64,000 nt of DNA from Arthrobacter sp. M2012083 (GTDB lineage Bacteria; Actinomycetota; Actinomycetes; Actinomycetales; Micrococcaceae): assembly GCF_000281065.1 (NCBI RefSeq), contig NZ_AKKK01000009.1:1-64000 (forward strand). Reading direction: 5' to 3'. The notes under the pieces were generated by a model. The model saw nothing but the letters and a program-made list of their open reading frames with translations. It was not told the DNA's origin and ran no database searches. This document shows, piece by piece, positions 4,050-56,941 of the stretch. Within the stretch, counting starts at the first letter, position 1. Each line of letters begins with the position of its first letter. A program made the position numbers and the translations under genes.

Positions 4050-4050
4050 C

Positions 4051-41563: not shown

Positions 41564-42634
41564 TCAAGTCCGTTTGAGAGGAAGATTGCCACGGTCGCTG
41601 ATGACGGCCAGCACAATGACCACTCCAATGACCACGGGTTGGAGATTCGGCGACACGTTCAACAGGGTAAGCCCGTTGTTGAGAACTCCGATGATGAGAA
41701 GACCTATGAACGTACTGAACATCGAGCCAACACCGCCTGACAGACTGGCACCACCGATGACTACTGCCGCGATCACGCTTAGGAGATCTGAAGCACTGCC
41801 CGCGGTTGGCTGGGCTGAATCCAGCCGAGCTCCCACAGCCAGGCCCGCCAAGGCGGCCAGGAAACCGGCGATGACGTACACGCGTGCCTGGGCCAGCCTC
41901 ACACTGATGCCGGAGAGCCGGGCGACCTCTTCATTGCCGCCGATGGCGTAGAGCTGCCGTCCAGAGGGCCGGTACCGCAACCATAGCGCTGCGAGGACGA
42001 AGACCAGCAGCATCAGATACACCTGCAAAGGTATGCCCAGCAGTCGCGTCCGGGACAGGCCGAGGAACCACTCAGGGAAGCCGATAACCGGGTTCCCGTT
42101 AGTGATGTACAAAGCGAGTCCCGCCCCGGCAAACATGGTTGCCAACGTGGCGATAAATGGCTGGACGTGCCCGAAAGTCACCAAGAGTCCGTTCACCAGT
42201 CCGATGAAAGCCCCAAGAATGAGCCCGCAGACCATGGCAAGCCAAAAGGGCAAACCTATTTCCTTGTAAAGGAAAGCGGTGGCCATGAACGACAATGCCA
42301 TCGTGGAGCCCACGGACAGGTCAATGCCTCCCAGGATAATGACCAAGGCGGCGCCTACGGCCATCATTCCGATGTAGGAAACCTGGCTGAGGACGTTGAT
42401 GAGGTTGTTCGGCGTCAGGAAGTAGGGCGAGAGCAGGGACATTGCGATGCAGATGACCACCAGCCCTATCACCGGGCCCGGAATATTCTTGGCGAGTTGC
42501 TTGATTCTCGTTTGCCATGGCTCCTGGCCAATACCTGCTCCGGTATTCGCCCGGGCGCCTGGCTCGACTTTAGGGCCGACGGTGTTTGTAGAAGGCACAG
42601 TCTTATCTTTCTTTTTTGAAGGGTATGGGTGCAC
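41564..42634 (-). CDS. ABC sugar transporter permease (RbsC-like)
   Basis: A 356-residue permease with about eight to ten membrane segments of the ribose/xylose branch (BPD_transp_2): GAALVIILGGIDLSVGSTMAL, NGLLVTFGHVQPFIATLATM, RVYVIAGFLAALAGLAVGARLDSAQPTAG and GGVGSMFSTFIGLLIIGVLNNGL. It forms the channel for the ATPase encoded just upstream; its GTG overlaps that stop by one base (TAGTG). A hydrophilic N terminus of about 45 residues is unusual in length. Confidence 0.9.
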   Translation of the reverse strand: MHPYPSKKKDKTVPSTNTVGPKVEPGARANTGAGIGQEPWQTRIKQLAKNIPGPVIGLVVICIAMSLLSPYFLTPNNLINVLSQVSYIGMMAVGAALVIILGGIDLSVGSTMALSFMATAFLYKEIGLPFWLAMVCGLILGAFIGLVNGLLVTFGHVQPFIATLATMFAGAGLALYITNGNPVIGFPEWFLGLSRTRLLGIPLQVYLMLLVFVLAALWLRYRPSGRQLYAIGGNEEVARLSGISVRLAQARVYVIAGFLAALAGLAVGARLDSAQPTAGSASDLLSVIAAVVIGGASLSGGVGSMFSTFIGLLIIGVLNNGLTLLNVSPNLQPVVIGVVIVLAVISDRGNLPLKRT

Positions 42635-44163
42635 TACGGCACTGAGAGTTCCATGACACGGTCAGGGAGGGCCTCGTCACGGCTGAGAATGCCGCGCTGC
42701 TGCCCCCCTGCCATGACGAGCACACGATGAGAGAGTCCGAGGACCTCTTCGAGCTCTGAGGAGACAACGATGATGGCTACCCCGTCGGCGGCCAGTTTGC
42801 GAACAATTTCATAGATTGCGGCCTTTGCGCCCACGTCCACGCCACGCGTGGGCTCGTCAAGGATGAGGACCTTTGGTTTCCGCACTAGCCACTTCGCCAG
42901 GAGGACTTTCTGCTGGTTTCCCCCGGAGAGGAAAAGGACAGGAATGTCCAGGTTCCCACGGATGTCCAACTCCTGTGCCTGTGCGCGCTCGACGCGCTTC
43001 ACGGTCCTACTGGACACGAAACCACTGGGGGTCAGCGTCTTCTCCCACGGCAGGACCATGTTCTCGCCTCCGCTTCTACCAAGGTTCAACCCTTGGCCTT
43101 TGCGGTCCTCTGGAACCATGAAAATGCCTTGTCGAATGGCACTGGCAACGTTGCTGATCTTCACCACTTTGCCGTCGACGACGATCGTGCCGGCGTCCGC
43201 ACGATCGGCACCGGCAAGGGTCCGGACAACTTCGGTGCGGCCTGCTCCTACAAGACCAGACATCCCAAGAATTTCCCCCTTGCGCACAGAGAAGGAGATA
43301 TCGCTGAACGCTCCGTGGCGAGCCAAGTTCTTGACCTCCAGCACGACATCCGGCTCAGCGGGTTGAGGGGCCTCGTGTGCGTACACGAACTCGCGGCCCA
43401 CCATGGCGCGGATCATCTGGTCCTTGCTGACATCGCCTGTGTCCCAGGCCATCGCCCTGTGCCCGTCGCGGAGGCAAAGAATTTCGTCAGCTATAGCCGA
43501 GATTTCGTCCAAGCGATGGCTGATGTAAATGACGCCCGCACCCCGGTCACGAAGGACCCTGATTTGGTCGAGAACCTTCTCGGTTTCCTCCTGCCCCAAA
43601 GAAGCTGACGGTTCGTCAAAGATCACGTATGACGGGTCCCGCAGGATGGCCTTTGCGATCTCTATTTCCTGCTGCGCGGCCATCGAGAGTCCGGCTACGG
43701 GCCGCCGCGGATTGATCTTGGCTCCTAAAACGGCCAGGGCCGCCTCGGCCTGCTCAGCCATGGAGGCAGTGTCCACGCGGCCCCGCTTCTTCGGCCATCG
43801 CCCCAGGAACATGTTTTCGGCAACGCTGAGCCGCGGGACCATCTTGATTTCCTGATGAATAATGGCCACGCCGCTGTTTAGCGCAGAAGCCGGACCCGTC
43901 GGGGCGTAGGGAAGTCCATTCAGGAACATCTCTCCAGCATCCGGTGACTTGATGCCCGCCAGTATGGAGCTGAGGGTGGATTTACCTGCGCCGTTTTCCC
44001 CGATGAATCCAAGAACCGTGCCTGCTCTCAGGGTGATGTCCACTCCATGCAGCACAGTGTTGCCGCCGTACTGTTTTGTGAGGCCTATGCCCCGGAGTGC
44101 CTTGGGCTCCTCGGTCAGCGATCCTCCATTGAGAGGTACCGGTCCCGTGCTGAGGATTGACAT
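42634..44163 (-). CDS. ABC sugar transporter ATPase (RbsA-like, duplicated)
   Basis: A 509-residue ATPase with two nucleotide-binding halves. Half 1 has Walker A GENGAGKST and Walker B YVIFDEPSASL. Half 2 has a degenerate Walker A (GLVGAGRTE), the signature LSGGNQQKVLLAK and Walker B VLILDEPTRGVD. This is the RbsA/XylG/MglA pattern of carbohydrate importers. I chose the ATG at 44163, which follows AAGGAAAAC; the frame is open further upstream but overlaps the binding-protein gene. Confidence 0.92.
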   Translation of the reverse strand: MSILSTGPVPLNGGSLTEEPKALRGIGLTKQYGGNTVLHGVDITLRAGTVLGFIGENGAGKSTLSSILAGIKSPDAGEMFLNGLPYAPTGPASALNSGVAIIHQEIKMVPRLSVAENMFLGRWPKKRGRVDTASMAEQAEAALAVLGAKINPRRPVAGLSMAAQQEIEIAKAILRDPSYVIFDEPSASLGQEETEKVLDQIRVLRDRGAGVIYISHRLDEISAIADEILCLRDGHRAMAWDTGDVSKDQMIRAMVGREFVYAHEAPQPAEPDVVLEVKNLARHGAFSDISFSVRKGEILGMSGLVGAGRTEVVRTLAGADRADAGTIVVDGKVVKISNVASAIRQGIFMVPEDRKGQGLNLGRSGGENMVLPWEKTLTPSGFVSSRTVKRVERAQAQELDIRGNLDIPVLFLSGGNQQKVLLAKWLVRKPKVLILDEPTRGVDVGAKAAIYEIVRKLAADGVAIIVVSSELEEVLGLSHRVLVMAGGQQRGILSRDEALPDRVMELSVP

Positions 44164-44187
44164 GTTTTCCTTCTTAGTTTGGGTAGC

Positions 44188-44218
44188 TCCGGCCCGCCCG
44201 CGCTGCGGGCAGGCCGGA
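44188..44218 (-). promoter_or_regulatory. intra-operon hairpin between binding-protein and ATPase genes
   Basis: TCCGGCC-C-GCCCG, loop, CGGGC-A-GGCCGGA: a strong imperfect stem in the 61-base gap between the binding protein and the ATPase. Such hairpins often stabilise the upstream message or attenuate downstream transcription, giving excess binding protein. Confidence 0.6.
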
Positions 44219-44224
44219 CTTCTG

Positions 44225-45259
44225 CTATTTCGCGGGGCCGTAGTATCCGGCGGAACGAGCCTCTTCAAGGTTTTCCTTGGTAACCAGGACCGTGGGCTGC
44301 AGCTGTTCTTTCTCAATGGACCCGGCCTCACCGTTCATGGCTTTGATGGCCGTGCGGACTGCAAGCTCACCCATTTGATACGGCTCCTGCGACATCGTGG
44401 CCAAAACCTGACCGGACTCGATGGCGTCGTAAACCTGCGGGAAGCCGTCCACACTGACGATCTTGAGGTTGGAGCGCCCGGCTTGGGCTGCCGCCTTGGC
44501 CGCACCGAGGGCCATTCCATCGTTCTGGGCGAAGATTGCCTGCAGTTCAGGATTGGCAGTCAGCACGTCTTGCGCCACGTTGTAGGCCTTGTTTTCGTCC
44601 CAGTCAGCGTTGGTGGTGGAGACCACTTTGATGTCTGGATTCTTCTCAAGAATGCTTGCGCATCCCTTGGAACGCTCAATTTCCGTGGAAGAACCGAGGA
44701 CACCCTTGATGATGGCGAGGTTGCCCTTGCCGCCCATCTGCTTGGCCAGGTAGTCACACAGTTCCGTGGATGCCTTGATGCTGTCGCTGCCAATGAAGGT
44801 GGTGACATCGCCTTGAGGACGCTGGTCGATGGCAATGACGGGGATGTTGGCGCCCTTTGCCTCAGCCACTCCCGCTGCGCCGGCTGTTGCATCCTGCATG
44901 GCGAAGATAACTGCGCCGACTTGCTGCGTCACGAGGTTCTGGACTTGGTTGACCTGCTGCGACGAATTGCCATTCGCGTTGAGGACCACAAGCTCGTAGC
45001 CTTCATCGGCAGCAGCCTTCTTCATGCCGTCAACGGCTGCAACGTAAAAGAGGGAATGAAATTCAGGCATGGAAACACCGATTGTCTTCTTGCCCGACCC
45101 GCCTGCGTTGGCGGCGTTGTCCGCACTGCAACCAGTCAGCGCCAAGGCGGCCGTGGCGAGCATGGCTAGCGCGACGCCCAACGGGCGACGGTAACGCGGC
45201 TTCCTCTGCTGTCCAACGTGGGCTGGCTCTGTTTGCGCTGAGCGGCTTGATTCGTTCAT
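44225..45259 (-). CDS. ABC sugar-binding lipoprotein (RbsB-like)
   Basis: A 344-residue periplasmic-binding-protein-family lipoprotein (lipobox LALTGCS near residue 40). The mature part is a Peripla_BP_4 sugar-binding protein: KTIGVSMPEFHSLFYVAAVDGMKKAA, ANGNSSQQVNQVQNLVTQQV, IPVIAIDQRP, FAQNDGMALGAAKAA and KIVSVDGFPQVYDAI. It should bind a sugar or polyol for the RbsA/RbsC-like importer in the same operon. The ATG at 45259 begins a proper signal sequence. Confidence 0.9.
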   Translation of the reverse strand: MNESSRSAQTEPAHVGQQRKPRYRRPLGVALAMLATAALALTGCSADNAANAGGSGKKTIGVSMPEFHSLFYVAAVDGMKKAAADEGYELVVLNANGNSSQQVNQVQNLVTQQVGAVIFAMQDATAGAAGVAEAKGANIPVIAIDQRPQGDVTTFIGSDSIKASTELCDYLAKQMGGKGNLAIIKGVLGSSTEIERSKGCASILEKNPDIKVVSTTNADWDENKAYNVAQDVLTANPELQAIFAQNDGMALGAAKAAAQAGRSNLKIVSVDGFPQVYDAIESGQVLATMSQEPYQMGELAVRTAIKAMNGEAGSIEKEQLQPTVLVTKENLEEARSAGYYGPAK

Positions 45260-45441
45260 CACGATGGGCCTTACCTCTCTGTAAGAAAATCTCGAACGGT
45301 GATGAGTGTTGGGGTGTGGCTCTTCGCAGTGTGGGTGCGTTGCGGGTTGTACCGCGGTGCCGGCGACCAGGCCGAGAACCTGCGAAGGTATTTCCAGTCT
45401 GTGAGGACCGTCACGATAAGTCCAAGTCAAAGATGCTTGGT

Positions 45442-45482: not shown

Positions 45483-46259
45483 TCACCAAGCGGTGAAGCC
45501 GCCATCCACGACGAGGTCCGCGCCCGTGCAAAAGCTGGCGGCAGGAGACAGGAGAAACAGCGCTGGCCCTGCCATCTCAAAAGGATCCGCAGGGCGGCCC
45601 AGCGGTGTGTTCCGGGTTACGGCTTCGTCCAAAATGCTCGCCACTTCGGCGCGATCGTTCATAGGCGTTCGCGTGAAACCCGGAGAGATGGAGTTGACGC
45701 GTATGCGGTACGGCGCCCATTCGGTGGCCAGCGATTTCGACAAGTGCGCAACAGCGGCCTTGGAACTGTTGTAGTGCGACTGCAACATCTCCCGGTGGGA
45801 AACGATCCCGGAGATGGAGGCCAGATTCACGATTGCACCCCCTCCGTTCTGCCTCATGGCCCGAGCTTGCGCCTGGCAGCTGAGGAAGACCCCGGTGACA
45901 TTCACACGAAAGACGCGCTCGAACTGATCCGCGGTCATATCCTCCGCTGGGACCGCACCGGCTATTCCAGCGGAATTCACTGCCGTGGTCAGGGGCCCCA
46001 ATGAGCCCTCGGTGCGTCGCACTGCAGCCTCCATCTGCTCAGCACTGGTTACGTCGGCAGCGATAAACTCAGCGTTTCTTCCCTCAGCTTCGATTGCCTC
46101 CAATGTTGCCGAAGGATCGCTGGAAGGCAGGTCAACCAAGGCCACATGACTGCCCATCTCCGCCAGGGCGATGGCGATGGCACTACCTATGCCGGACGCC
46201 CCACCCGTCACCATCGCGACGCCGTCGTCGAGCCTGAACGAGAGCTTGCCATGGCTCAT
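45483..46259 (-). CDS. SDR-family oxidoreductase
   Basis: A 258-residue classical SDR: VTGGASGIGSAIAIALAE, DLPSSDPSA, NSAGIAGAV, catalytic ASISGIV and Tyr/Lys in SHYNSSKAAVAHLSK, and C-terminal CTGADLVVDGGFTAW. It is the third gene of the amidohydrolase-NifU-SDR operon, starting one base after the NifU-domain stop. The acid after strand beta2 suggests NAD. Probably oxidises an intermediate handled by the amidohydrolase. Confidence 0.85.
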   Translation of the reverse strand: MSHGKLSFRLDDGVAMVTGGASGIGSAIAIALAEMGSHVALVDLPSSDPSATLEAIEAEGRNAEFIAADVTSAEQMEAAVRRTEGSLGPLTTAVNSAGIAGAVPAEDMTADQFERVFRVNVTGVFLSCQAQARAMRQNGGGAIVNLASISGIVSHREMLQSHYNSSKAAVAHLSKSLATEWAPYRIRVNSISPGFTRTPMNDRAEVASILDEAVTRNTPLGRPADPFEMAGPALFLLSPAASFCTGADLVVDGGFTAW

Positions 46260-46260
46260 A

Positions 46261-46665
46261 TCAATGTCCTCCCGCCTCGGCGACTGCCTCCGGCCGGCAG
46301 GCAGCGGGCTGCTGGCCGCCTAGGGAAATGGACTGCCTTGAGGCCGGCTGGGCCGGCCTGTAGTGCGCCGAGCCTCCAAGTGTGGCGGCGATGCGATCCA
46401 AGGCACGCCGTGATGCATGGACTTGCGAAGACTTGACGTCCTTGACGCCGCCCACCTGCATCAGGCGGGAGCGGACCAGACCGGCAAACGTCACCGAAAT
46501 AGCAGGGCATGAGTGGCAGGCATTGTGGAAAGCAACCGTGACCACACCGTCCTCAACACCCTCGATTGTCAGGTCGCCTGAGTGGCCCTTAAGCAAGGGA
46601 CGAATATAGGCGAGCGCCTCCTGAAGATCCTCGTCAAAGGGACCAATGTTCTCTGTCATGGTCAC
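46261..46665 (-). CDS. NifU C-terminal-domain protein (Fe-S scaffold type)
   Basis: A 134-residue protein. Residues about 10-75 form a NifU/NfuA-type domain (IRPLLKGHSGDLTIEGVEDG) with the CxxC pair in HNACHSCPAISVTFAGLV and a final VGGVKDV. A tail of about 50 residues rich in Ala, Pro and Gln follows. Such domains carry or transfer Fe-S clusters. It overlaps the amidohydrolase by four bases (ATGA), so it is made with that enzyme rather than with a general Fe-S assembly operon. What it serves here is unknown. Confidence 0.75.
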   Translation of the reverse strand: MTMTENIGPFDEDLQEALAYIRPLLKGHSGDLTIEGVEDGVVTVAFHNACHSCPAISVTFAGLVRSRLMQVGGVKDVKSSQVHASRRALDRIAATLGGSAHYRPAQPASRQSISLGGQQPAACRPEAVAEAGGH

Positions 46666-47669
46666 AGCAACCCCAGTTCCTTCTTCTTGAGTTCAAGATC
46701 AATCCCAAGTCCCCGGGCGAAATTCAGGCCAAAGACCTGCTCTTTGATCTCAGGGGTCAGCTCCGGGTATCCGTATTTGTCCTGGAGTTCTTCAGGCATC
46801 TCGAGGTTGGCCCAAGTGTCGATGTACGTTTGCATGTGAGGCCACAGAAACCCCTCTGATCCATAACAAAGCTTGTCCGCGCCGACGAAGAGCAACGTCT
46901 GGCCGAGGCGGTGCAGCATGGGGTAGGGCTGGAGGTAGTACTGGTTATGCCATAGCGGAAGCATCAGGTAGATGTTGGGAAAGCGCGACGCGATGCTAAC
47001 CAGTTCATCAACGTATGGATCGCCAAGGTGGTGGATACCAAAGTTCAATTCCGGGAAATCATAGGCCGCCATTTGTATGTCGTTAGGACGGAATGCTTCC
47101 ACTGGCTGCATACCCAAGGGGTATCCCTTGTGAAACTGAACCATCTTGATTCCCAGCTCAATGGCCTTCTCCCATAGTGGGTAGGCGATCTCCTTGTCAT
47201 CTGCTCGCCAGTGATGGTTCTCGTCGTGATACTGGTAGAACTTGAAGCTGACAGCCCCCCATTCCTTGACCTGCCGCTCCATCTCTTCCAGAGCGAACTC
47301 CAGCCCCTGCCACACTGGGTCAACGCCACCTGTGAAGTAAAACCGGGAAGGGTTGGAAGCGGCCAGCTGATAGTTCATTTCCGCTGGTCCCAAAGAGTTC
47401 TGCCATTGCCCGAAGAGCGGAACAGTGCACACCATGGCAATATCTGTGTCCGACTCCTCAAAAAGCGTCTTGTTCGCCCAGTCAACGTCCACTGGATCGT
47501 AGAAGTCGGGCTTGTCGGCAGGGCCCTTGGTTGCCATGAGCTTGTTGAACTGCCCCTGATTACTGCGGTGGGCCCGGACCTGGCGGCCGTCCCCGCCGGG
47601 CCGCACCTGCCGGTCGGTGAAATCCTGAGTGTGAACCACGCAGTCGAAGACGAACATACCGTTTTTCAT
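46662..47669 (-). CDS. amidohydrolase-2-family protein with altered metal site
   Basis: A 335-residue protein with the pattern of amidohydrolase family 2 (decarboxylases such as gamma-resorcylate and ACMS decarboxylase, and lactonases). The first strand reads VFDCVVHTQDF, with Val where the first His of HxH is normal. Later ligands are MVQFHKGYPLG and FGIHHLGDPYVDE, and the final YGSEGFLWPHM has Glu where GSD(Y/W)P normally has Asp. The ATG at 47669 is chosen since the conserved part begins there. First gene of an operon with the NifU and SDR genes, divergent from a LysR gene. Confidence 0.75.
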   Translation of the reverse strand: MKNGMFVFDCVVHTQDFTDRQVRPGGDGRQVRAHRSNQGQFNKLMATKGPADKPDFYDPVDVDWANKTLFEESDTDIAMVCTVPLFGQWQNSLGPAEMNYQLAASNPSRFYFTGGVDPVWQGLEFALEEMERQVKEWGAVSFKFYQYHDENHHWRADDKEIAYPLWEKAIELGIKMVQFHKGYPLGMQPVEAFRPNDIQMAAYDFPELNFGIHHLGDPYVDELVSIASRFPNIYLMLPLWHNQYYLQPYPMLHRLGQTLLFVGADKLCYGSEGFLWPHMQTYIDTWANLEMPEELQDKYGYPELTPEIKEQVFGLNFARGLGIDLELKKKELGLL

Positions 47670-47828: not shown

Positions 47829-47844
47829 TTATGCTTATAAGGTG
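47829..47844. promoter_or_regulatory. inverted repeat overlapping the lysR start
   Basis: CTTATGCTTATAAG has CTTAT mirrored by ATAAG, and lies directly before the GTG of the LysR gene. LysR regulators often bind T-N11-A sites in their own promoter, so this is a candidate autoregulatory site. Confidence 0.4.
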
Positions 47845-48807
47845 ACTTTGAGACAGATGGAGTACCTACTGGTAGTAGCCGAAGAGGGATCCTTTACGCG
47901 CGCCGCTGAGCTCCTTCGCGTTTCACAGCCGGGGCTCAGTCAACAGATCCGGGCTCTTGAGCGCGCGGCTGGTGGAGAACTTATCGAGCGGACCACTGGA
48001 ACTGTGCGGCTGACGCCCGCTGGCAAGGCCTATGCCGAGCATGCACGAATTGCATTGAAGGCGGCCGAGGACGCTAGGAAGGCCGCCCGCGAGGTCCTAA
48101 GTGGAGAAGCGGGAGAACTGGTCATCGCCACGGTACTTTCGATCGCCGCCGGAATCCTTCCCCCGTCCCTGCTCCGTTGGCACACGGACAATCCCAAAAT
48201 CCCGGTCACACTGTTGGAATACGCCCACAGGAGAACGCTGGAAGAGTCCGTGGCATCCGGTGCCGGCGATCTCGCCGTAGGGCCCACTCCCAAGCAGTGG
48301 GGTGGACCCGTCATCGATCTCGGACATGAAATATTCGTGCTGTACCTGGCTCCGGATGATCCCATCCTGAAGAAAGTCCAGCCCTACGAAGGCGAGGTGC
48401 CCAAGGGTGCGCCGCAGTCGCGGGGAGTCCTTCCGGTGAGCGCGCTCCATGCGCATTCCTGGATCACTTTCGAGGGCAACCATGGACTGGGCGAGTTCAT
48501 CCGTGAATACATGCAAGCCGCCAATGTGACGCCGGAGTTCGTGTTCCACACAGGTCAAATAGACAGCGCTGTGAAACTGGCCGGCGCGGGGGCCGGGGTT
48601 GCCCTGCTCCCGGCAAATGCCCTGCCAATGGACGGTCCTGGTGTCGCTGTGGAGCCTTTTCCAGCTCTTACCCGCGATCTTGCTGTGTACAGCCGCACCA
48701 AGCTCTCACCCACGGCCAAAAGATATGTGGAACTTCTGCAGAAACTTCCCGCCGTTCTTGAGCCTCCCGAAAGCCATCGCCGCAGGCAAAACCCTCTCCA
48801 GCCATAA
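47842..48807 (+). CDS. LysR-family transcriptional regulator
   Basis: A 321-residue LysR regulator: LRQMEYLLVVAEEGSFTRAAELL with recognition helix RVSQPGLSQQIRALERAAG, then an effector domain starting near LVIATVLSIAAG. It resembles the CbbR/CatR-type aromatic and organic-acid regulators. It diverges from the amidohydrolase operon across 172 bases and most likely controls it. The start is GTG. Confidence 0.87.
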   Translation: MTLRQMEYLLVVAEEGSFTRAAELLRVSQPGLSQQIRALERAAGGELIERTTGTVRLTPAGKAYAEHARIALKAAEDARKAAREVLSGEAGELVIATVLSIAAGILPPSLLRWHTDNPKIPVTLLEYAHRRTLEESVASGAGDLAVGPTPKQWGGPVIDLGHEIFVLYLAPDDPILKKVQPYEGEVPKGAPQSRGVLPVSALHAHSWITFEGNHGLGEFIREYMQAANVTPEFVFHTGQIDSAVKLAGAGAGVALLPANALPMDGPGVAVEPFPALTRDLAVYSRTKLSPTAKRYVELLQKLPAVLEPPESHRRRQNPLQP

Positions 48808-48932
48808 CAAATGCTCATGGGTGCCTAAACGGAGTTCTATTAGAGGCCCGGCATTTACCATGAAACGATGTTGGCGGGCGCACAGTGCGGGATCCGCAGC
48901 GTCTGGTAGACGTTCAGCCGAAAGGAACAAGA

Positions 48933-49820
48933 GTGTCTGTACTCGTCACCGGCTCAACCGGATACGTCGGACTGGCCATTGCGTTGCGGCTCAAAGCGGC
49001 GGGCCACGAAACATTCGGGCTAACCGATACCGTGACAGGGACGAAAGTCTTGGAATCCAGGGACATAACTCCGATCCTGGCCACGCTTGAAGACGGAGAA
49101 ACTATCCGGAACGTCACCCAGCTGGTTGATGCAGTGGTGGACGTCTCCGGTCACTTGCCAGCTGCCAAGCTATTCCTTGCCACGTTGGAGGGGACCGGCA
49201 AGCGATACATCCGAAACAGCACCGCCAGGGTGTACGTGGACGCTTCGCTCGGTTCGCTGAGCAGGATTGTCCACAAAGAGGGAAAGGCCGTGTCTCCCAT
49301 TCGCGGACTGGCTGAAATTCTCGAAACGGATGCTCAGGTCCAACAGGCTTCCGAAAGAGGCATTCACACCACCGTCTTACGTCCTTCCATTCCCTACGGA
49401 GAGGCCAGCGGGCCGGTGATCGGTGGGCTGATGAAGCGCGCCATCACCGCAGGGCGAAGCCTCTACGTTGGTCTTGGCGCCAACAGGCAATCACACGTGT
49501 ACCTTGCGGACCTCGCGGAGTCATTTGCCTTGGCGATAGAGAAGGCGCCCTCCGGGAGTTTGTACAACATTGCTGCCGGCGAATCTTCCCTCGCTGACAT
49601 TGCCCAGGACATCGCCACAATTCTGGGGTACCCGGACGCACAGTCATGCACCATGGACGCTGCCTACGAGGCATACGGCGTGAAATTCGTCGATGGCGTC
49701 CTGGCCGGCAACTGCCGTGTTGATGCAACCAAGGCCAGAATCGAGCTTGGATGGCAGCCCAAAGGTCCCGGCCTGCAGGACGAACTCCGCGAGGGATCAT
49801 ACGCCCTGATGTGGTCCTAA
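48933..49820 (+). CDS. NAD-dependent epimerase/dehydratase-type protein (paralogue 1)
   Basis: A 295-residue atypical SDR. The N-terminal loop VLVTGSTGYVGLAIALRL binds NAD(P), and the later LRPSIPYGE and HVYLADLAESFALAIEKA are extended-SDR-like. The YxxxK catalytic pair is not seen; the equivalent region reads VSPIRGLAEILE. It aligns along its length with the protein at 51767 (for example GIHTTVLRPS, ITAGRSLYVG, NCRVDATKARIELGW). The GTG start has an AAAGGAAC site. Start of the plus-strand catabolic run. Confidence 0.75.
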   Translation: MSVLVTGSTGYVGLAIALRLKAAGHETFGLTDTVTGTKVLESRDITPILATLEDGETIRNVTQLVDAVVDVSGHLPAAKLFLATLEGTGKRYIRNSTARVYVDASLGSLSRIVHKEGKAVSPIRGLAEILETDAQVQQASERGIHTTVLRPSIPYGEASGPVIGGLMKRAITAGRSLYVGLGANRQSHVYLADLAESFALAIEKAPSGSLYNIAAGESSLADIAQDIATILGYPDAQSCTMDAAYEAYGVKFVDGVLAGNCRVDATKARIELGWQPKGPGLQDELREGSYALMWS

Positions 49821-50092
49821 CCTCCAGGCCAGCCGCCCAATAGCGGCGAGCCAAAGCCATAAGCAGCGCTTTGGTCCGGCATTGCATTCTGGTCTTGGAC
49901 GCCCCGCCCGCCTTCGTGGAACCATTGAAACAAGCCCAATCGAGGGCTCCAGGATTCTCCAACTCCCACTAACGCAAGAATTCACAGCCAATTCCTGACC
50001 CTCGAACCCGAGACCCGCCGCCCCTTGGCAGCTAGGCTCGGTGTCCTCTGCGAACATCTGATTTGCATGAACAGAGGAAGGCAAATGGACCC
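49821..50092. other. intergenic, no gene recognised
   Basis: About 270 bases between the first epimerase-like gene and the SDR. Nothing clearly structured was seen; it probably holds a promoter. Confidence 0.4.
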
Positions 50093-50887
50093 ATGAACAG
50101 AACATTCAGTGGCAAAACTGTCCTCATTACAGGTGCGAGCCAAGGAATCGGGCTCGCGGCCGCAGAACATTTCCTCAAGGAAGGAGCGAACGTTGTTGGA
50201 GTCAGCCGCGAATCTGCGGAAATGGCAAGCACAACCAGCACGAATGCCAACAATTTTCTCCACATCTCCGCGGACCTATCCCTTCCCGGGACGCCTGGGA
50301 CCGCGGTGCGGCAGGCCTTGCAACGCTTTGGCGGGATCGACGTCCTGGTCAACAACGCCGGGGCTGTAGCCGTCCGGAAGGGCTTCCTGGATGTCACCGA
50401 CGAAATGTGGGAATCCACTATGGAGCTCAACTTCATGGGCTACGTGAGGATGAGCCGGGAGGTTCTTCCCCACATGCTTGAAGCCGGTTCCGGATCCATC
50501 ATCCACGTGGGATCGGAAGCAGGACGAACCCCGTTGGTGGACGCTCCGGACTACAGCGTTTCTAAGGCAGCAATTTTGTCCTTGTCCAAGCTCCTGTCGC
50601 GGGAATTCGGGCCAAAAGGAATCCGGTCCAACGTTGTAGCTCCGGCGCATATCTACACACCAATGTGGGATCGGCCCGGAGGTTTCCTTGACTCCCAAGC
50701 CCGCAAATTCGATGTGCCACGGGAAGAAGCAATCCAGGCCTTCGTGGAAGATTCAGGACTCCCGGTAGGGAGACTGGGGACAGCCGACGACGTCGCTCCA
50801 GTGATCCTCTTCCTCGCCTCACCGGCCGCAGGCTTTATCACGGGGGCCGAATACACCGTCAACGGAGGCGTCACTACGTTTGTGTGA
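50093..50887 (+). CDS. SDR-family oxidoreductase
   Basis: A 264-residue classical SDR: ITGASQGIGLAAAEHFL, VSRES (NADP-like), NNAGAVAV, Tyr-Lys in APDYSVSKAAILSLSK and C-terminal ITGAEYTVNGGV. I start at the ATG at 50093; an ATG ten codons earlier (50063) is in frame but has a weaker context. It heads a close group with cupin, Dabb and a second epimerase-like gene. Confidence 0.85.
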   Translation: MNRTFSGKTVLITGASQGIGLAAAEHFLKEGANVVGVSRESAEMASTTSTNANNFLHISADLSLPGTPGTAVRQALQRFGGIDVLVNNAGAVAVRKGFLDVTDEMWESTMELNFMGYVRMSREVLPHMLEAGSGSIIHVGSEAGRTPLVDAPDYSVSKAAILSLSKLLSREFGPKGIRSNVVAPAHIYTPMWDRPGGFLDSQARKFDVPREEAIQAFVEDSGLPVGRLGTADDVAPVILFLASPAAGFITGAEYTVNGGVTTFV

Positions 50888-50919
50888 TCCTCCCTCGCCC
50901 CATCTCGAGAGGACACTTC

Positions 50920-51369
50920 GTGACAACCCAGGAAAACCAAGCCACCATTCCGCAGGGAAGCCAGCGGGCAGGGATCGTCGTAGCCCGGAACTTCAATGAC
51001 TGGTCCGCCGAAATCCTCGATGACTTTCATGACAACGCCTACAACTTCACGGTGGGACACCGCATAGTCTCCGAAACGAAGGACGTGAGGGTGTGGGAGA
51101 TCAGACTGGACCCCGGTCACCGGCTCCCCGCCCACCGCCACGTCCTGGACTACTTTTGGACCGCTGTCAGCGCCGGACACAGCAGGCAGCACGAAGACGA
51201 TGGAACCACCAGGGAAGTGGACTACGCGGTGGGTGATACCCGTCATTTTCACTTCGGACCCGGCGAATACCTACTTCACGATCTGGAAAACATCGGCCAG
51301 TCCCAGCTGGTCTTCGTCACCGTTGAACACAAATCCAATACCGAACAACTGAAACAACAACAGAGATAG
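50920..51369 (+). CDS. cupin-domain protein
   Basis: A 149-residue small beta-barrel protein. The metal-binding motif is GHRLPAHRHVLDYFW, with a second motif at FHFGPGEYLLHDLENIG. Cupins of this size act as dioxygenases, isomerases or binding proteins; the reaction is not known here. The GTG at 50920 follows GAGAGGAC by six bases. An earlier GTG at 50884 is less likely. It follows the SDR by 32 bases. Confidence 0.78.
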   Translation: MTTQENQATIPQGSQRAGIVVARNFNDWSAEILDDFHDNAYNFTVGHRIVSETKDVRVWEIRLDPGHRLPAHRHVLDYFWTAVSAGHSRQHEDDGTTREVDYAVGDTRHFHFGPGEYLLHDLENIGQSQLVFVTVEHKSNTEQLKQQQR

Positions 51370-51384
51370 GGCGCAGGAAACACG

Positions 51385-51723
51385 ATGTTCTACCAACTCG
51401 TCAGCTTCACCTTTCCCGAGGACATCACGAGTGAGGCACGGACCTCCTTTGAGGACGCTCTGCGGAACCTTCCAGAAAAGATCCCGGAACTGGAAGACGT
51501 ACGGGTTATCCGCGCATTCGACGATGTCAACGTCACCGGTTATGTGTCTGTCTTCGCTTCGGAAGAGGACTACCAACGGTACCTCGAACACCCGGATCAC
51601 GCCCCGATCGGAGTCCTGGCCGAAAGCGTCTGCTCACGCATTCGACGCCTCCTTCTGGACGACAACCGTCCCAGCATCCTGGCCGCGGGCCAGCAGAATG
51701 AGCAGCTAAGCCAACTGGCCTGA
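51385..51723 (+). CDS. Dabb (stress-responsive A/B barrel) domain protein
   Basis: A 112-residue ferredoxin-like alpha+beta barrel protein of the Dabb family (FYQLVSFTFPED at the start; YVSVFASEEDYQRYLEHPDHA with the conserved His-Pro-x-His region). Dabb proteins include small cyclases and enzymes in aromatic and polyketide chemistry. It follows the cupin by 15 bases, so both are co-translated. No activity is claimed. Confidence 0.75.
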   Translation: MFYQLVSFTFPEDITSEARTSFEDALRNLPEKIPELEDVRVIRAFDDVNVTGYVSVFASEEDYQRYLEHPDHAPIGVLAESVCSRIRRLLLDDNRPSILAAGQQNEQLSQLA

Positions 51724-51766: not shown

Positions 51767-52732
51767 ATGCATATCTTCGTCACTGGAGCCACTGGATACA
51801 TCGGACAGGCCGTTTCCCAACGACTGCTCCAATCCGGCCACACGGTCAGCGGCCTCGTCCGGAGCGAAAGCGGCGCAAAGGCGCTGCGTGCCCGCGGGAT
51901 CGCTCCTGTACTCGGAGGGCTCGACGATACTGCGGTCCTCCGGGAAGCAGCTTTGGCTGCCGACGCAGTTGTCGATACGGCAACGGCCGATCATGCTGAA
52001 TCCACCCAGGTGTTCCTCGCGGCATTGGAGGGAACCAACAAGAAATTCATCCGCACCAGCGGAACGGGTATCTACACGGACCTGGCACAGGGCGAGCTAA
52101 ACCCGACAATCTACACCGAAGAGGTCCAGCATTCCCCTGCTGAGATTGTTGCCACCCGGTATGCCACGGACCTTGCCGTGATCGACGCCGCCAGCAGGGG
52201 CATTCACACAGTAGTCCTGCGTCCCTCCATGATCTTTGGCGATGGCGCCAGCGAACAGTTGCCATTGCTCATCCGCCAGGCCATCACATCCGGACGCAGC
52301 CTCTACGTAGGACGGGGTGACAACCGTTGGTCCAACGTGTACATCGCTGACCTTGCTGAAGCCTACTTCCTGGCCTTGGACAAGGCTCCGGCCGGCAGCG
52401 CCTACAACCTGGCGGCCGGTGAAGCTCGCATGGGAGACATAGCCGAAACCATCGCCCGGCTGGTTGGGCTCCCGGCAGCCGAATCGTGCACGCCCGACGT
52501 CGCATACCAGGCATTGGGCCAGCGCTGGGTGGACGTGGCAATTTCCAGCAACAGCCGCGTTGACTCGGCGAAGGCTCGCACGGAGCTGGGTTGGAATCCT
52601 GTAGGACCTGACCTCCTGGACGATCTCGGATCCGGCTCATACAAGCGGATCTGGGCTTACAAGGGAGACCCGCACGACCACGTCCAGGCCGTGGCGATCG
52701 ACGACGCGCTGGAAGGTGTCGACTCGCACTAA
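51767..52732 (+). CDS. NAD-dependent epimerase/dehydratase-type protein (paralogue 2)
   Basis: A 321-residue atypical SDR, paralogous to the protein at 48933. Cofactor loop IFVTGATGYIGQAVSQRL; acid-free GLVRSESG suggests NADP; later VLRPSMIFGDGA, ITSGRSLYVGRGDNRWSNVYIADLAEA and NSRVDSAKARTELGW match paralogue 1. The usual YxxxK is replaced by TEEVQHSPAEIVATRYATD. It follows the Dabb gene by 43 bases and ends before a strong hairpin. Confidence 0.78.
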   Translation: MHIFVTGATGYIGQAVSQRLLQSGHTVSGLVRSESGAKALRARGIAPVLGGLDDTAVLREAALAADAVVDTATADHAESTQVFLAALEGTNKKFIRTSGTGIYTDLAQGELNPTIYTEEVQHSPAEIVATRYATDLAVIDAASRGIHTVVLRPSMIFGDGASEQLPLLIRQAITSGRSLYVGRGDNRWSNVYIADLAEAYFLALDKAPAGSAYNLAAGEARMGDIAETIARLVGLPAAESCTPDVAYQALGQRWVDVAISSNSRVDSAKARTELGWNPVGPDLLDDLGSGSYKRIWAYKGDPHDHVQAVAIDDALEGVDSH

Positions 52733-52825: not shown

Positions 52826-52858
52826 TCAGATGAGAACAGCAGTGTGGAATGGAATGTC

Positions 52859-53935
52859 ATGGAAGAAGTTCAGAACGTGAGCCAAGGCCAGGTCATGGTG
52901 GTTGGAGCGCACGGAGTCATAGGGCGGGCTGCGGCTTTGCACCTCGCGGACGCAGGGTGGGATGTGGTGACAGTTGCCAGGCGCGGACCCCTGGCGGAAT
53001 TGAAAGCACGGAGCAACGTCCGGCACATAAGCGTAGACCTCCTCGATCCGGAGTCAGTGAAGGAGCGTTTCGCCTCCCTGACGGCAGTCACCCACGTGGT
53101 CTACGCCGCCTACCTGGACATGCCGATGCGGACTGCCGTGGCACCGAACACCGCCATGCTGGTGAACACGCTGGATGCCCTACAGTCGCTGGGTGCCATC
53201 CTCACGAGAGTGGTCATGGTGGGAGGCGGAAAGTCCTATGGCGAACACCTCGGCCACTACAAGACACCCGCGAAGGAATCGGATCCGCGCTTCCTGGGGC
53301 CGATTTTTTACAACAACCAGGAAGACGCCCTTAAACAGCGCGCTGTCGACCGGCATTTCTCCTGGACAGTTCTGCGCCCCGATGGAGTGTTCGGCTTCAG
53401 CGCGGGATCTCCCATGAACATCGTTAACGGATTGGCCGTTTTCGCCGCAGTCAGCAAGGAACAGGGCGTGCCATTACGTTTCCCTGGCCTCCCGGGAACG
53501 TGGAACGCCCTGCATCAAGCCACGGATTCGGCGCTGCTGGCACGCGCCATTTTGTGGGCGCTGACCGCTGACCGCGCACATGCAGAGATTTTTAATGTCA
53601 CCAACGGCGATAATTTCCGTTGGAGCCAGCTTTGGGTCGACCTAGCCGAGTTCTTCGACATGCCGACGGCGGAACCCCAGCCGGTGCCGCTGGTGGAGCA
53701 CATGAGCGATAAGGAAGACCTCTGGCAGACCATGGTGGCCCAGTACGGACTGCGTCCAACCCCGTGGGACACCATTGCGTCGTGGCCATTTGTCGAAGGC
53801 TGGCTGGCGTCCGACTTTGACATGGTGCAGAGCACCATCAAGATCCGGCAGGCCGGTTTCCACGACTGCATCGACTCCCACCTGAGCCTTCGAAACCATT
53901 TGGGCTTCCTGCGCAGCAACCGCTACATTCCGTAG
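52859..53935 (+). CDS. PRISE-family SDR (5-beta-reductase/iridoid-synthase-like)
   Basis: A 358-residue atypical SDR. Cofactor loop VMVVGAHGVIGRAAALHL, VARRGPL (NADP), the region YGEHLGHYKTPAKESDPR and the active-site Tyr in FYNNQEDALKQRA follow the plant VEP1/progesterone 5-beta-reductase (PRISE) pattern; these reduce C=C in enones. The later VFGFSAGSPMNIVNGLAVFAA also fits. The ATG at 52859 is preferred to a GTG at 52781 lying inside the terminator. Probably transcribed with or just after the epimerase-like gene. Confidence 0.78.
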   Translation: MEEVQNVSQGQVMVVGAHGVIGRAAALHLADAGWDVVTVARRGPLAELKARSNVRHISVDLLDPESVKERFASLTAVTHVVYAAYLDMPMRTAVAPNTAMLVNTLDALQSLGAILTRVVMVGGGKSYGEHLGHYKTPAKESDPRFLGPIFYNNQEDALKQRAVDRHFSWTVLRPDGVFGFSAGSPMNIVNGLAVFAAVSKEQGVPLRFPGLPGTWNALHQATDSALLARAILWALTADRAHAEIFNVTNGDNFRWSQLWVDLAEFFDMPTAEPQPVPLVEHMSDKEDLWQTMVAQYGLRPTPWDTIASWPFVEGWLASDFDMVQSTIKIRQAGFHDCIDSHLSLRNHLGFLRSNRYIP

Positions 53936-54020: not shown

Positions 54021-55085
54021 TTACCGGGAGAGAAGGTAGTCGGGGTCCGGGGCGGAAACGGAGATGCCCTCTGGAGAGAAAACTACCCGGGGGAGGATGG
54101 TGGTCGGTTCCTGCACGGCGAGCGCGCCCCAGGCAACCGCCCGTGCCAGGGCCTCACGAACCACCTCATGCGTGAAGGGGGCGGCTGAGGCATGGGGCAA
54201 CGCGCTGAGATATCCGGCCAGGGCAGCGTCCCCGGCCCCGGTGGTGTTGAGGACTTTAGCTGAGGGTCCCCGCGCCCAGAGGACCTCGTGCTCGTTCACT
54301 TCAACGAGTCCGTCACTGCCCAGGCTGGCCAAAACCGTCCGAACTCCCCTTTTCCGGAGCAGGTTTGCGGCGTAGACCACATCCCGCATGGTCCTCAGCT
54401 GCGTTCCGGTGATATCTGCGAGCTCCTCCTTGTTTGGTTTCACCAGGTCCACGGGATTTGCTGAGGACGCCCACGCTCTGAGGGTTTCACCTGATGTGTC
54501 CAGGCAGGTTGAGGCACCAGCCCGGCGTGCCGCCCGAAAGAGGTCCCCGGGATCGACTTCGCGGCCCGTCGTGGTGTCCGCCGGCAGTGATCCTCCGAGG
54601 ACGAGCCAGTCCGCTTTGACCCGTTCGACTTCGTGAAGTGTTGCCGCGCACAGTTGCTGCCACTTTGCAGTGGACAGAGGTGCGGCACTCTCATTGAAGT
54701 TCGTGGTGGCACCGTCCGTGTCGACAATTATCGCGTTCACACGTGTGGGCGCAGTGACCTCCACGGTCCTGAAGACTTTCTTACGAACGCTTTCGCTGCC
54801 CTCGGCCAGTTCAAGGTCCTCGGCGTTGATGGGCACTACAGCGGTGGCGACATTCCCAGCGAGGCTAAGGGCGCGTGCAACATTGATGCCCTTGCCTGCG
54901 AGGTACGTTTCCACCCTGGTGGCCCTGTTAACGTGGCCCTCGACCATTCGATCAAGAAAGTAGACCCTGTCTATCGCAGGGGCGGGAGTGAGGGTGACGA
55001 TACGCGACAAAGATGATAGCCCTGTCTGCTTCACTGTTTCACGTGGGCCCAGGGTCTGGAGTGGCTTGGACATAATGGCCTTCAT
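54021..55085 (-). CDS. PfkB-family phosphosugar kinase (1-phosphofructokinase/LacC-like)
   Basis: A 354-residue ribokinase-family enzyme. The N-terminal motif YLAGKGINVARALSLAG is the GKGxNVA signature of the phosphosugar branch (FruK, LacC, PfkB), and the catalytic base lies in NTTGAGDAALAGYLSAL. It therefore likely phosphorylates a sugar phosphate. The substrate is open, since no PTS system is near. ATG directly abuts the transketolase C-subunit stop (TGAATG); an ATG four codons later has GAAGG before it. Last gene of the transketolase operon. Confidence 0.82.
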   Translation of the reverse strand: MKAIMSKPLQTLGPRETVKQTGLSSLSRIVTLTPAPAIDRVYFLDRMVEGHVNRATRVETYLAGKGINVARALSLAGNVATAVVPINAEDLELAEGSESVRKKVFRTVEVTAPTRVNAIIVDTDGATTNFNESAAPLSTAKWQQLCAATLHEVERVKADWLVLGGSLPADTTTGREVDPGDLFRAARRAGASTCLDTSGETLRAWASSANPVDLVKPNKEELADITGTQLRTMRDVVYAANLLRKRGVRTVLASLGSDGLVEVNEHEVLWARGPSAKVLNTTGAGDAALAGYLSALPHASAAPFTHEVVREALARAVAWGALAVQEPTTILPRVVFSPEGISVSAPDPDYLLSR

Positions 55086-56027
55086 TCACTTCCGCGTGTT
55101 CAGGCTGGCCTTGATCTGCTGGGCGACCTTGGCAGGAGACAATCCGTATTTATCCAAAAGGAAATCGTTTGGTGCAGACTCGGACCAGCGATCCTCGAGT
55201 CCGATCCGGGTCACCCGCGCGGGCTCTTGTGATCCAGCAGTAAGCTCGCAAACGAGCCCTCCAAGTCCACCCAGCACGCTATGTTCTTCCACCGTGACAA
55301 TCAGCTGAGTGCCGCCGAGTTCATGCAGCAACTCATGCTCATCCAGGGGCTTCAACATCGGTACGTGAATGTGTTTCGCCCCAATACCTTCCAGCTCGAG
55401 GGAATCCAAGGCTTGCGAAACCCTTGAGGTCTGCACGCCCGTGGAAACTACCGTGAGATCGGAGCCGTCCCGCAGGACGACAGGCTTGTACGGGGTAAAG
55501 ACGTAGTTGTCTTCAAAGACGGCCTGAACGGCGTCCCGCGCGAAGCGAATGTAAACGGGTCCGTCGTACTCCGCCACCCACTTAATCGCCGCGCGCGCTT
55601 CCGCCGCATCTGCGGGGGCGATGACGGTCATATTCGGCATGGCCCGCATAATGGCAAAGTCTTCGATATCCTGGTGTGTTTTGCCACTGGAACCGTTCAG
55701 TAAGCCGGCATAGGCCGCCGCAATACGAACCGGGGCCTTGGTCTGTGAAACAAGCATTCTCACTTGGTCCAGCGCCCGGTGGGTGAAGAAGACTCCGAAC
55801 GAGGACAACCATGGTCGGTATCCGAGAGTGCTGAGGCCGAAAGCCATGCCAACAATGTTCTGCTCGGCAATGCCTACTTGGATGAACCTGTCCGGGTGGG
55901 ACTCAGCCAGGATATCTGCCCTCGTTGACGTTGCAAGATCGCCATCCAGAATGAGGATCCGCTCATCCAGATCCGAAAGCTCAGATAGCGTCTCACCCCA
56001 AACCTGACGTTGCGCTTTGGTGCTCAC
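55086..56027 (-). CDS. transketolase, C-terminal subunit
   Basis: A 313-residue protein covering the pyrimidine-binding and C-terminal domains: ILDGDLATSTRADILAE, FIQVGIAEQNIVGMAFGLS (the conserved Glu contacts the thiamine ring), GKTHQDIEDFAIMRAMPNM. It pairs with the N-terminal subunit encoded just upstream; the GTG overlaps that stop by four bases (GTGA). Split transketolases are common in archaea and in some bacterial sugar pathways such as those for apulose-4-phosphate. Confidence 0.9.
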   Translation of the reverse strand: MSTKAQRQVWGETLSELSDLDERILILDGDLATSTRADILAESHPDRFIQVGIAEQNIVGMAFGLSTLGYRPWLSSFGVFFTHRALDQVRMLVSQTKAPVRIAAAYAGLLNGSSGKTHQDIEDFAIMRAMPNMTVIAPADAAEARAAIKWVAEYDGPVYIRFARDAVQAVFEDNYVFTPYKPVVLRDGSDLTVVSTGVQTSRVSQALDSLELEGIGAKHIHVPMLKPLDEHELLHELGGTQLIVTVEEHSVLGGLGGLVCELTAGSQEPARVTRIGLEDRWSESAPNDFLLDKYGLSPAKVAQQIKASLNTRK

Positions 56028-56911
56028 TTGGCTGCCTCCATGTTCTGGCCGAGTTCTTCGCGGGCGATCCGCAGTTGTTCTTCAGTGGCTATGCCGTTGT
56101 GCCACTTGTACGTTCCTTGGGTAAATGAGACGCCGAACCCCTTGGTAGTGTTCGAAATAATCGCTGTCGGCTTGCCGGAAACTCCGCGAAACGACTGGGC
56201 AAAACTGAGCGCGTCCGAAATTTCCTTCAAGTCGTGCCCATTGATGCTGATCGTGTTCCAGCCAAAGCCAGTGAACACGGCTTCCAAGTCCACGTGCCCC
56301 ACGGGTTCGCTGCGGTCGAAGCGGTCCCCCGGCCCAGCCGGCCAACCATATTGTTGAAGGCCGTTGACGTCCACGATCGCGGTGAGATTGTCGAGCCCAA
56401 ACCTTGGCGCGGATAGGACCGTCTCCCACACCATGCCCTCTTCGATCTCGCCGTCACCCAGCATGACCCAGGTATGGAAATCCTTTCCCAGTTTTTTGGC
56501 TCCGAGAGCCATCCCCGCACCGCTCGAGAGGCCTTGGCCCAATGATCCAGTGGACGCATCGACTCCCGGGGTCAGAAGCATATCCGGGTGCCCTTGAAGA
56601 CGAGAGTCTCCGTGATCAAAGCTGGCCAGTTCGTCTACCGAGAAGTACCCACGCAGGGCTAGCACCGTGTAGAGGCCGATGGCGCAATGGCCTTTCGACA
56701 GGATGAACCGGTCCCGGTCCGGGTCCTGAGGACTATTTGGATCTATTCGCAGGTGCTTGAAGTACAGCGATACAAGCACGTCCATAGCGGACAAGGGTCC
56801 ACCGATGTGTCCGGCTTTGCTGGAGGCAACAGTGTCAATGACCCGCCATCGGGCTTCCTGAATGATGCCGCTCAGGTCCAGGTCTGTGAGGACCTCGGTT
56901 TTTGTATTCAT
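56024..56911 (-). CDS. transketolase, N-terminal subunit
   Basis: A 295-residue thiamine-diphosphate-binding subunit: DTVASSKAGHIGGPLSAMDV with the catalytic-site His residues, LSKGHCAIGLY, GSLGQGLSSGAGMALGAK, and the ThDP/Mg motif LGDGEIEEGMVWE...NGLQQ. With the C subunit it should form a full transketolase. The ATG at 56911 has GAGAGG eight bases before it, and a promoter with the shared palindrome lies upstream (site B). First gene of the operon with the C subunit and the PfkB kinase. Confidence 0.9.
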   Translation of the reverse strand: MNTKTEVLTDLDLSGIIQEARWRVIDTVASSKAGHIGGPLSAMDVLVSLYFKHLRIDPNSPQDPDRDRFILSKGHCAIGLYTVLALRGYFSVDELASFDHGDSRLQGHPDMLLTPGVDASTGSLGQGLSSGAGMALGAKKLGKDFHTWVMLGDGEIEEGMVWETVLSAPRFGLDNLTAIVDVNGLQQYGWPAGPGDRFDRSEPVGHVDLEAVFTGFGWNTISINGHDLKEISDALSFAQSFRGVSGKPTAIISNTTKGFGVSFTQGTYKWHNGIATEEQLRIAREELGQNMEAAK

Positions 56912-56941
56912 GGGGTAAACCTCTCTCAACGACGTGATTTC

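Follow-up and report, generated by a model that had tools for sequence, protein, structure and literature searches.

The window analysed here is a 64,000-nucleotide stretch of contig NZ_AKKK01000009.1 from Arthrobacter sp. M2012083. On its minus strand, a gene for a 335-residue amidohydrolase-fold enzyme of family PF04909 with a variant metal site, V-x-H plus GSE (46662-47669), is followed by a gene for a NifU-domain (Nfu-type) protein with a CxxC motif (PF01106; 46261-46665), the stop of the one and the start of the other overlapping by four bases (GTGA, 46662-46665). The start of the enzyme gene is conserved in its relatives, and the longer open reading frame that reaches 47825 is not needed. 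One base further on lies a minus-strand gene for an SDR oxidoreductase (45483-46259; NCBIfam NF004774, 388 bits against a cut-off of 360), and a gene for a LysR regulator diverges on the plus strand (47842-48807, start placed by eye). A sequence-only reading of this DNA had described the overlap, the SDR and the regulator in these terms, and all of them are present.

The minus strand continues with the sugar-binding protein of a ribose-type ABC transporter (44225-45430; PF13407), the two-domain ATPase of the same transporter (42634-44331; named by eye, the reading frame probably overlong, and its counterpart in locus L008 scanned) and the permease (41564-42634, named by eye). On the plus strand, the regulator is followed by genes for a NAD-dependent epimerase-type protein (48885-49820), a further SDR oxidoreductase (50063-50887), a cupin-like protein (50884-51369; by eye, no Pfam match), a small Dabb protein (51385-51723; PF07876), a second NAD-dependent epimerase-type protein (51767-52732) and a PRISE-like reductase (52841-53935; PF22917, E 1.6e-23). 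The last of these belongs to a family presumably named after the plant progesterone 5-beta-reductase/iridoid synthase, and such a gene also adjoins the enzyme/NifU pair in locus L006. The minus strand then carries a PfkB-family sugar kinase (54021-55085) and a split transketolase (55086-56929) with its C half at 55086-56027 and its N half at 56024-56929, the halves named by eye; the transketolase has BLAST matches in 15 other loci, and the pair of halves in L005 was scanned. Nearer the edge of the window are an aldehyde dehydrogenase-type reading frame (58735-60213) and, by eye, carboxyltransferase-type and family III CoA-transferase-type frames (61262-63979). The ribose-type transporter, split transketolase, SDRs and PfkB kinase suggest that the substrate of the cluster is a polyol or sugar-like compound, and these neighbours point away from the aromatic-acid or lactone operon that had been proposed for the locus.

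The enzyme matches PF04909 in a profile search (89.3 bits against a cut-off of 26.4, E 5e-25); NCBIfam has no match for it at E 0.001. An AlphaFold2 model built on 19 sequences (pLDDT 77, pTM 0.82) has the TIM barrel fold of the family. The metal site of the enzyme departs from the canonical mononuclear amidohydrolase pattern, in which strand 1 carries HxH and an Asp follows strand 8. Strand 1 reads D9-C-V11-V-H13, with Val replacing the first His, and strand 8 ends in GSE272GF, with Glu in place of Asp, as had been noticed from the letters. Across the 95 rows (93 distinct genes) of the clade defined below, position 11 is His in 37, Val in 37, Ala in 15, Ile in 2 and a gap in 4, and position 272 is Glu in 47, Asp in 39, Gly in 7 and Ala in 2. 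Since the same residues recur over the clade, V11 and E272 are not sequence errors. K143, Y145, H180, K181, D197, H214, G216 and N232 are present in all 95 rows, and enzymes of the subclade with NifU partners have Val or Ala at the first position and Glu at the last throughout. The earlier suggestion of a changed or metal-independent chemistry is supported as far as a changed metal site is concerned: with H13, H180, H214 and K143 retained, the site is altered, not lost, and these residues together with E272 could still hold a metal. There is no Cys among the invariant or near-invariant columns of the clade, which makes an Fe-S cluster within the enzyme unlikely, and we rejected an Fe-S enzyme with its cluster inside the amidohydrolase for want of such ligands.

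The small protein matches PF01106 with 45.1 bits against a cut-off of 27 (E 1.2e-11) and carries the motif ACHSCP. It scores 21.4 and 25.6 bits against the equivalogs TIGR03341 and TIGR02000, which have cut-offs of 269 and 273, and so it is not NfuA or NifU proper. Its model is confident for residues 11-90 and is most similar to CnfU (2z51, Z 8.2), followed by other NifU domains at 6.5-7.4 and unrelated folds from 6.3 downward; because unrelated folds score close behind, the NifU assignment is carried by the profile matches, which in the PDB are NifU-like in 5 of 5 cases. The C-terminal tail of about 35 residues (46264-46380) is longer than that of most relatives and is modelled with low confidence. 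Compared with the NfuA/CnfU and SufT/MIP18 Fe-S carriers, the protein has the same domain, fold and CxxC as 2z51; it differs in that its gene accompanies that of a single enzyme at the loci inspected. It is the one NifU domain found in the source genome, in which PF01883 (DUF59) has three matches elsewhere.

Close relatives of the window enzyme were found in one scan of genome contigs at 18 loci in Actinomycetota and Alphaproteobacteria, with 64-97% identity; the closest comes from Paenarthrobacter nitroguajacolicus, at 97% identity, and its locus is colinear with the window. When a Shinella plasmid (L021) and the window itself are included, the NifU gene lies directly downstream of the enzyme gene at 20 of 20 loci, and its CxxC is kept in all 21 rows of the subclade (20 distinct). 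Recurrent neighbours are the split transketolase, the ribose-type ABC transporter, SDRs, the PRISE-like reductase and LysR or IclR regulators. The Shinella plasmid is annotated with a different transporter type and with kinase, aldolase and inositol-monophosphatase-type genes, and L013-L015 have the same layout, by eye, without transketolase families within 10 kb. Since the surrounding genes vary between loci, the pair is the steady core. Thus, of the trio that the sequence-only reading had treated as an operon, the enzyme and the NifU protein hold together as a unit, and the SDR that follows them is not a constant third member. Nor is this NifU subfamily scattered beside many unrelated genes, the finding that would have counted against a link to the enzyme. 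A NifU domain occurs in 19 of 347 genomes of the same order. For the 18 NifU domains other than that of the window, the fetched stretch (1.7-3.2 kb) holds no such enzyme, and they score 22-46 bits against a profile of the partner, compared with 141 for the partner itself. The enzyme was found at E 1e-50 in 3 of the 347 genomes, which marks the window cluster as an accessory element; two of these enzymes (36-38% identity) have a DUF59 neighbour.

The pairing extends well beyond the NifU subclade. A profile built from 13 enzymes (A2) matched 114 of 396 Actinomycetota genomes at 1e-20. When the fetched loci were scored locally together with those from the other searches, 95 rows reached the threshold of 260 bits that bounds the clade, and these represent 93 distinct genes (L019 is the window, and L060 is the same as L057). 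A partner on the same strand lies within 280 bases in 92 of the 95 rows. For the second enzyme of L050 a DUF59 gene lies just past the first fetched stretch (L173), and three further strong matches (L174-L176) each have DUF59 beside the enzyme, so that 94 of 96 distinct clade genes of at least 260 bits have an adjacent same-strand partner. The two genes without one (the first enzyme of L050 and the second of L086) both touch a contig end, on the flank that carries the partner in their branch. Further relatives had a partner in 11 of 11 cases, namely L141, L142 and nine plasmid records from Paracoccus, Bradyrhizobium, Aminobacter, Gemmobacter, Halorarius, Rhizobium, Caballeronia, Natronorubrum and Haloarcula. 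These nine were annotated by others and are also counted among the 18 records inspected out of 106 that matched in a plasmid search, 17 of which have an Fe-S carrier gene beside the enzyme: L021 has NifU, 14 annotated records name an 'iron-sulfur cluster assembly protein' or DUF59, and BLAST finds DUF59 in the unannotated L022 and L023. No Fe-S carrier adjoins the enzyme in the remaining record, L152 (26% identity), which is one of 43 from Pseudosulfitobacter. The usual partner in the clade is DUF59 (SufT/MIP18-like, confirmed as PF01883), and the paired loci span Actinomycetota, Alpha- and Betaproteobacteria, haloarchaea and Thermomicrobium. The NifU protein is thus no odd one-off companion, as it had first appeared, as it replaces the DUF59 partner of a large clade; the window pair shares with the DUF59 pairs K143, Y145, H180, K181, D197, H214 and N232 as well as the same-strand carrier.

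Among broken or cut genes below 260 bits, those of L065, L177, L178 and L180 and the second piece in L179 adjoin DUF59. The frame-broken gene of L181 has no clear partner, with an 8-bit NifU-like trace right after it on the same strand; this broken relative of the window enzyme (3411-3948) lies about 4.5 kb from an intact enzyme of another branch (L087). In L050 (the same locus as L173), L065 and L086, an enzyme of one branch has an enzyme of another branch as its neighbour. The order in L065 is DUF59, a frame-broken V-x-H/Glu enzyme, an HxH/Asp enzyme and DUF59, so that each DUF59 is on the outer side; by analogy with AibH1H2, such neighbouring enzymes could be heteromers. Viral contigs, when scanned, yielded a single locus (L098, IMG/VR), in which, by eye, a phage-like structural reading frame runs in frame into a clade enzyme that is followed by a DUF59-like frame (3639-6207); it is probably a chimeric assembly.

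Distant homologues lack the partner. DUF59 or NifU was found at none of 20 loci of homologues scoring 90-180 bits, within 2 kb on each side where the contig allowed, and at none of six others (L020, L094-L097 and L152). The controls were picked by their scores once it was clear that none fell between 180 and 260 bits. Y145, K181 and D197 are present in 104 of 104 sequences of the paired clade and in 8 of 25, 3 of 24 and 4 of 25 controls, respectively, and mark the clade; K143, H180, H214 and N232 are common to the clade and the 25 controls. Wherever the sequence reaches, then, an intact enzyme of the clade adjoins a DUF59 or NifU gene, and its distant homologues do not.

Three branches with DUF59 partners can be told apart. 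The first has HxH plus Asp and a DPE-type DUF59 (the second His is Ala or Gly in four rows), the second V-x-H plus Glu and a DPC(C)-type DUF59, and the third V-x-H or I-x-H (Ser in L144) plus Gly or Ala and a DPC-type DUF59; the partner in L041 has DPCC, and that in L034 is cut at its start. The NifU group, with V-x-H or A-x-H plus Glu, forms one clade (SH-aLRT 100) on a long stem (1.94 changes per column). In a tree from a quick search that excluded the three site columns, the HxH branch is separated from the others by a single split, and the match between site and partner type is therefore one event and not statistical proof. Repeated co-evolution of metal site and partner was considered and is not supported, as the quick tree has one change of each. 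The NifU and DUF59 partners are, we assume, members of one Fe-S assembly superfamily. Their profiles align over 70 columns (probability 88.5, E 2.8e-6), with the 'WC-P' of DUF59 on the second Cys of the NifU CxxCP. In Staphylococcus aureus, overproduction of Nfu mitigates the loss of SufT/DUF59, and their functions overlap (PMC8593673). The replacement of DUF59 by NifU is easy to picture as a swap between related carrier domains, and such a swap argues that the handling of Fe or Fe-S by the partner is what is kept.

In VIA-align comparisons, the enzyme model is closest to 3irs (Z 22.7), the carboxyvanillate and dihydroxybenzoate decarboxylases (about 22), ACMSD (21.5) and LigJ (20.5), followed by SfbO (20.1), TruffO (19.8) and DitZ (19.4). 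LigJ is the top Foldseek match, and LigY is also among the best fold matches; many of these rows are tied, and a common fold is no proof of function. Sequence-profile matches passing 0.001 are 3irs and LigJ only. The comparison with decarboxylases and ACMSD proposed in the sequence-only reading thus bears out a likeness of fold (Z 19-22 for GRDC, LigW, ACMSD and LigJ) and not of the first- and last-strand residues, in which the window enzyme differs from all four. Presumably these enzymes have His on strands 5 and 6 as the window enzyme does, and we know of no Fe-S carrier neighbour for any of them. The presence of SfbO, TruffO and DitZ in the fold list led us to consider a dinuclear oxygenase of the amidohydrolase-related (ARO) group, whose naming and neighbour rule are given in PMC10811679 (see also PMC10401708). 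Like AibH2, SfbO and PtmU3, the window enzyme has the PF04909 fold, and Rieske-linked AROs also adjoin a small Fe-S protein. The ligands of AibH2 are D-x-H, a beta-5 His, a beta-6 Glu and D-x-x-H (PMC7782822), whereas the window enzyme has V-x-H, H180, H214 and E272-G-F-L without the following His. On this ligand pattern, matched through the strand order of the model and not by a residue-level structural alignment, we rejected the ARO assignment.

Adjacency of enzyme and carrier is already known from propane-monooxygenase operons. The pair lies between propane-type monooxygenase and GroEL genes in 4 of the 9 plasmid records (L143, L145, L146 and L149); together with L026, these loci have GroEL near the pair in 5 of 5 cases and an alcohol dehydrogenase in 3 of 5, L026 being one of the three. 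The L143 operon, on Paracoccus aminophilus pAMI4, has an IS5-type transposase annotated within it (3254-4183). Published prm and mim operons show the same arrangement (PMC4428276, PMC6849523, PMC9213486, PMC5445863), with genes described as a metal-dependent hydrolase and a 'metal-sulfur cluster biosynthetic enzyme' (PMC4428276) or, in Mycobacterium smegmatis, as 'amidohydrolase 2' (MSMEG_1975) next to MSMEG_1976, likened here by description (PMC5445863). A relative in a Mim cluster made up 3.2% of the proteome with a fold-change of 1.6 (PMC7176365), the abundance column appearing to be for 2-HIBA-grown cells. The propane-type pairs belong to the same enzyme clade, with an adjacent DUF59; they have HxH plus Asp, while the window has V-x-H plus Glu, NifU and a sugar-type setting. 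Searches of one open-access library yielded no paper on the general pairing or on NifU in it, and no explanation of the adjacency.

Other settings are more varied. Among the families listed, Zn-dependent alcohol dehydrogenases account for 11 of 55 proteins scanned near the HxH branch and PF02332 (di-iron monooxygenase) for 4 of 55, and SDRs account for 8 of 51 near the V-x-H/Gly branch. Near the V-x-H/Glu branch with DUF59, no dehydrogenase family exceeds 2 of 46 proteins (25 of 64 families listed), which disfavours a simple dehydrogenase rule. Among the neighbours of the pair are a limonene-epoxide-hydrolase-family gene and SDRs in L027, E1/E2 dehydrogenase genes in L024 and a lactoylglutathione lyase in L148.

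What could account for so constant a pairing? We favour, with somewhat better than even confidence, an iron-dependent enzyme that works near a dehydrogenase and is equipped by a dedicated carrier or subunit. The enzyme and the small protein would form one functional unit, a PF04909 TIM barrel with its own Fe-S or iron carrier, in which the small protein may load iron into the enzyme or stay bound as a subunit; the enzyme would thus be iron-dependent and not a Zn hydrolase. The adjacency (94/96 and 11/11, against 0/20 and 0/6 in controls), the clade marks, the likeness of the carrier profiles, the CxxC kept in the NifU subclade and the sole NifU domain found in the genome all argue for one unit. 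Judging by the neighbours, it might act on a ketone or alpha-hydroxyketone made by a nearby SDR or alcohol dehydrogenase, which in the window would probably derive from a polyol or sugar-like compound that the ribose-type transporter imports and the split transketolase cleaves at a later step. A more specific version is decidedly improbable: a two-component iron enzyme with a His-rich site (H13/H180/H214) and a bound or dedicated Fe-S carrier that would cleave or rearrange alpha-hydroxyketones or diketones, performing the same step on acetol in propane users, on terpene ketols and, in the window, on oxidised polyols. Against the favoured explanation, DUF59 and NifU carriers normally serve Fe-S proteins, and conserved Cys residues are missing from this enzyme; a single deep split underlies the association of a lost first His with the DPC- or NifU-type partner, and L181 lacks a clear partner.

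It is also conceivable, though rather unlikely, that the small protein stays with the enzyme permanently as a catalytic or redox subunit, its Fe-S cluster feeding electrons to the enzyme or completing the active site. Such a role has been proposed for the Rieske ferredoxin AibG with AibH1H2, and PF04909 enzymes with redox activity do occur next to small Fe-S proteins (PMC10811679). The four-base overlap would suit a fixed stoichiometry, and V-x-H enzymes pair with partners that have extra Cys (DPC, CxxC), but no reductase is prominent among the neighbours (FMN_red 2/51, NAD_binding_1 1/55, with 25 families listed of 43, 64 and 70), and DUF59 and Nfu are not, to our knowledge, established as electron carriers. 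It is improbable, too, that the enzyme is a conventional hydrolase, hydratase or decarboxylase with a mononuclear Mn/Zn site and a conserved, non-essential accessory as its neighbour. Its closest folds (3irs, decarboxylases, ACMSD, LigJ and LigY) and the capacity of H13, H180, H214 and E272 to bind metal would fit such an enzyme; a pairing that reaches from Actinomycetota to haloarchaea and Thermomicrobium, with the partner swapped and not lost, would not. The position of the pair in the four plasmid operons and in published ones (PMC4428276, PMC6849523, PMC9213486) could instead mean that it serves another iron enzyme, for example by metallating soluble di-iron monooxygenases, with the amidohydrolase as helper. 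We regard this as highly improbable: PF02332 was unmatched in the source genome (a weak negative, as it was also unmatched in 14 control genomes), the fetched haloarchaeal and rhizobial stretches have no annotated di-iron monooxygenase, the pair and alcohol dehydrogenase of Mycobacterium AT1 are described as located apart from the monooxygenase (PMC6849523), and the text on the group 6 smo cluster of BCP1 describes GroEL and dehydrogenases without the word 'hydrolase' (PMC11057499).

The adjacency of enzyme and carrier suggests an unrecognised iron-dependent enzyme pair. If the explanation of a dedicated carrier or subunit is true, a group of so-called 'amidohydrolases' of propane users, soil actinomycetes, rhizobia and haloarchaea has been misread, and its members would be iron-dependent enzymes with an Fe-S carrier of their own, and two orphan genes of propane operons would gain a role. 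It would also provide a simple genomic rule for finding more such pairs, and the natural swap of DUF59 for NifU would offer a way to test how carriers recognise their clients.
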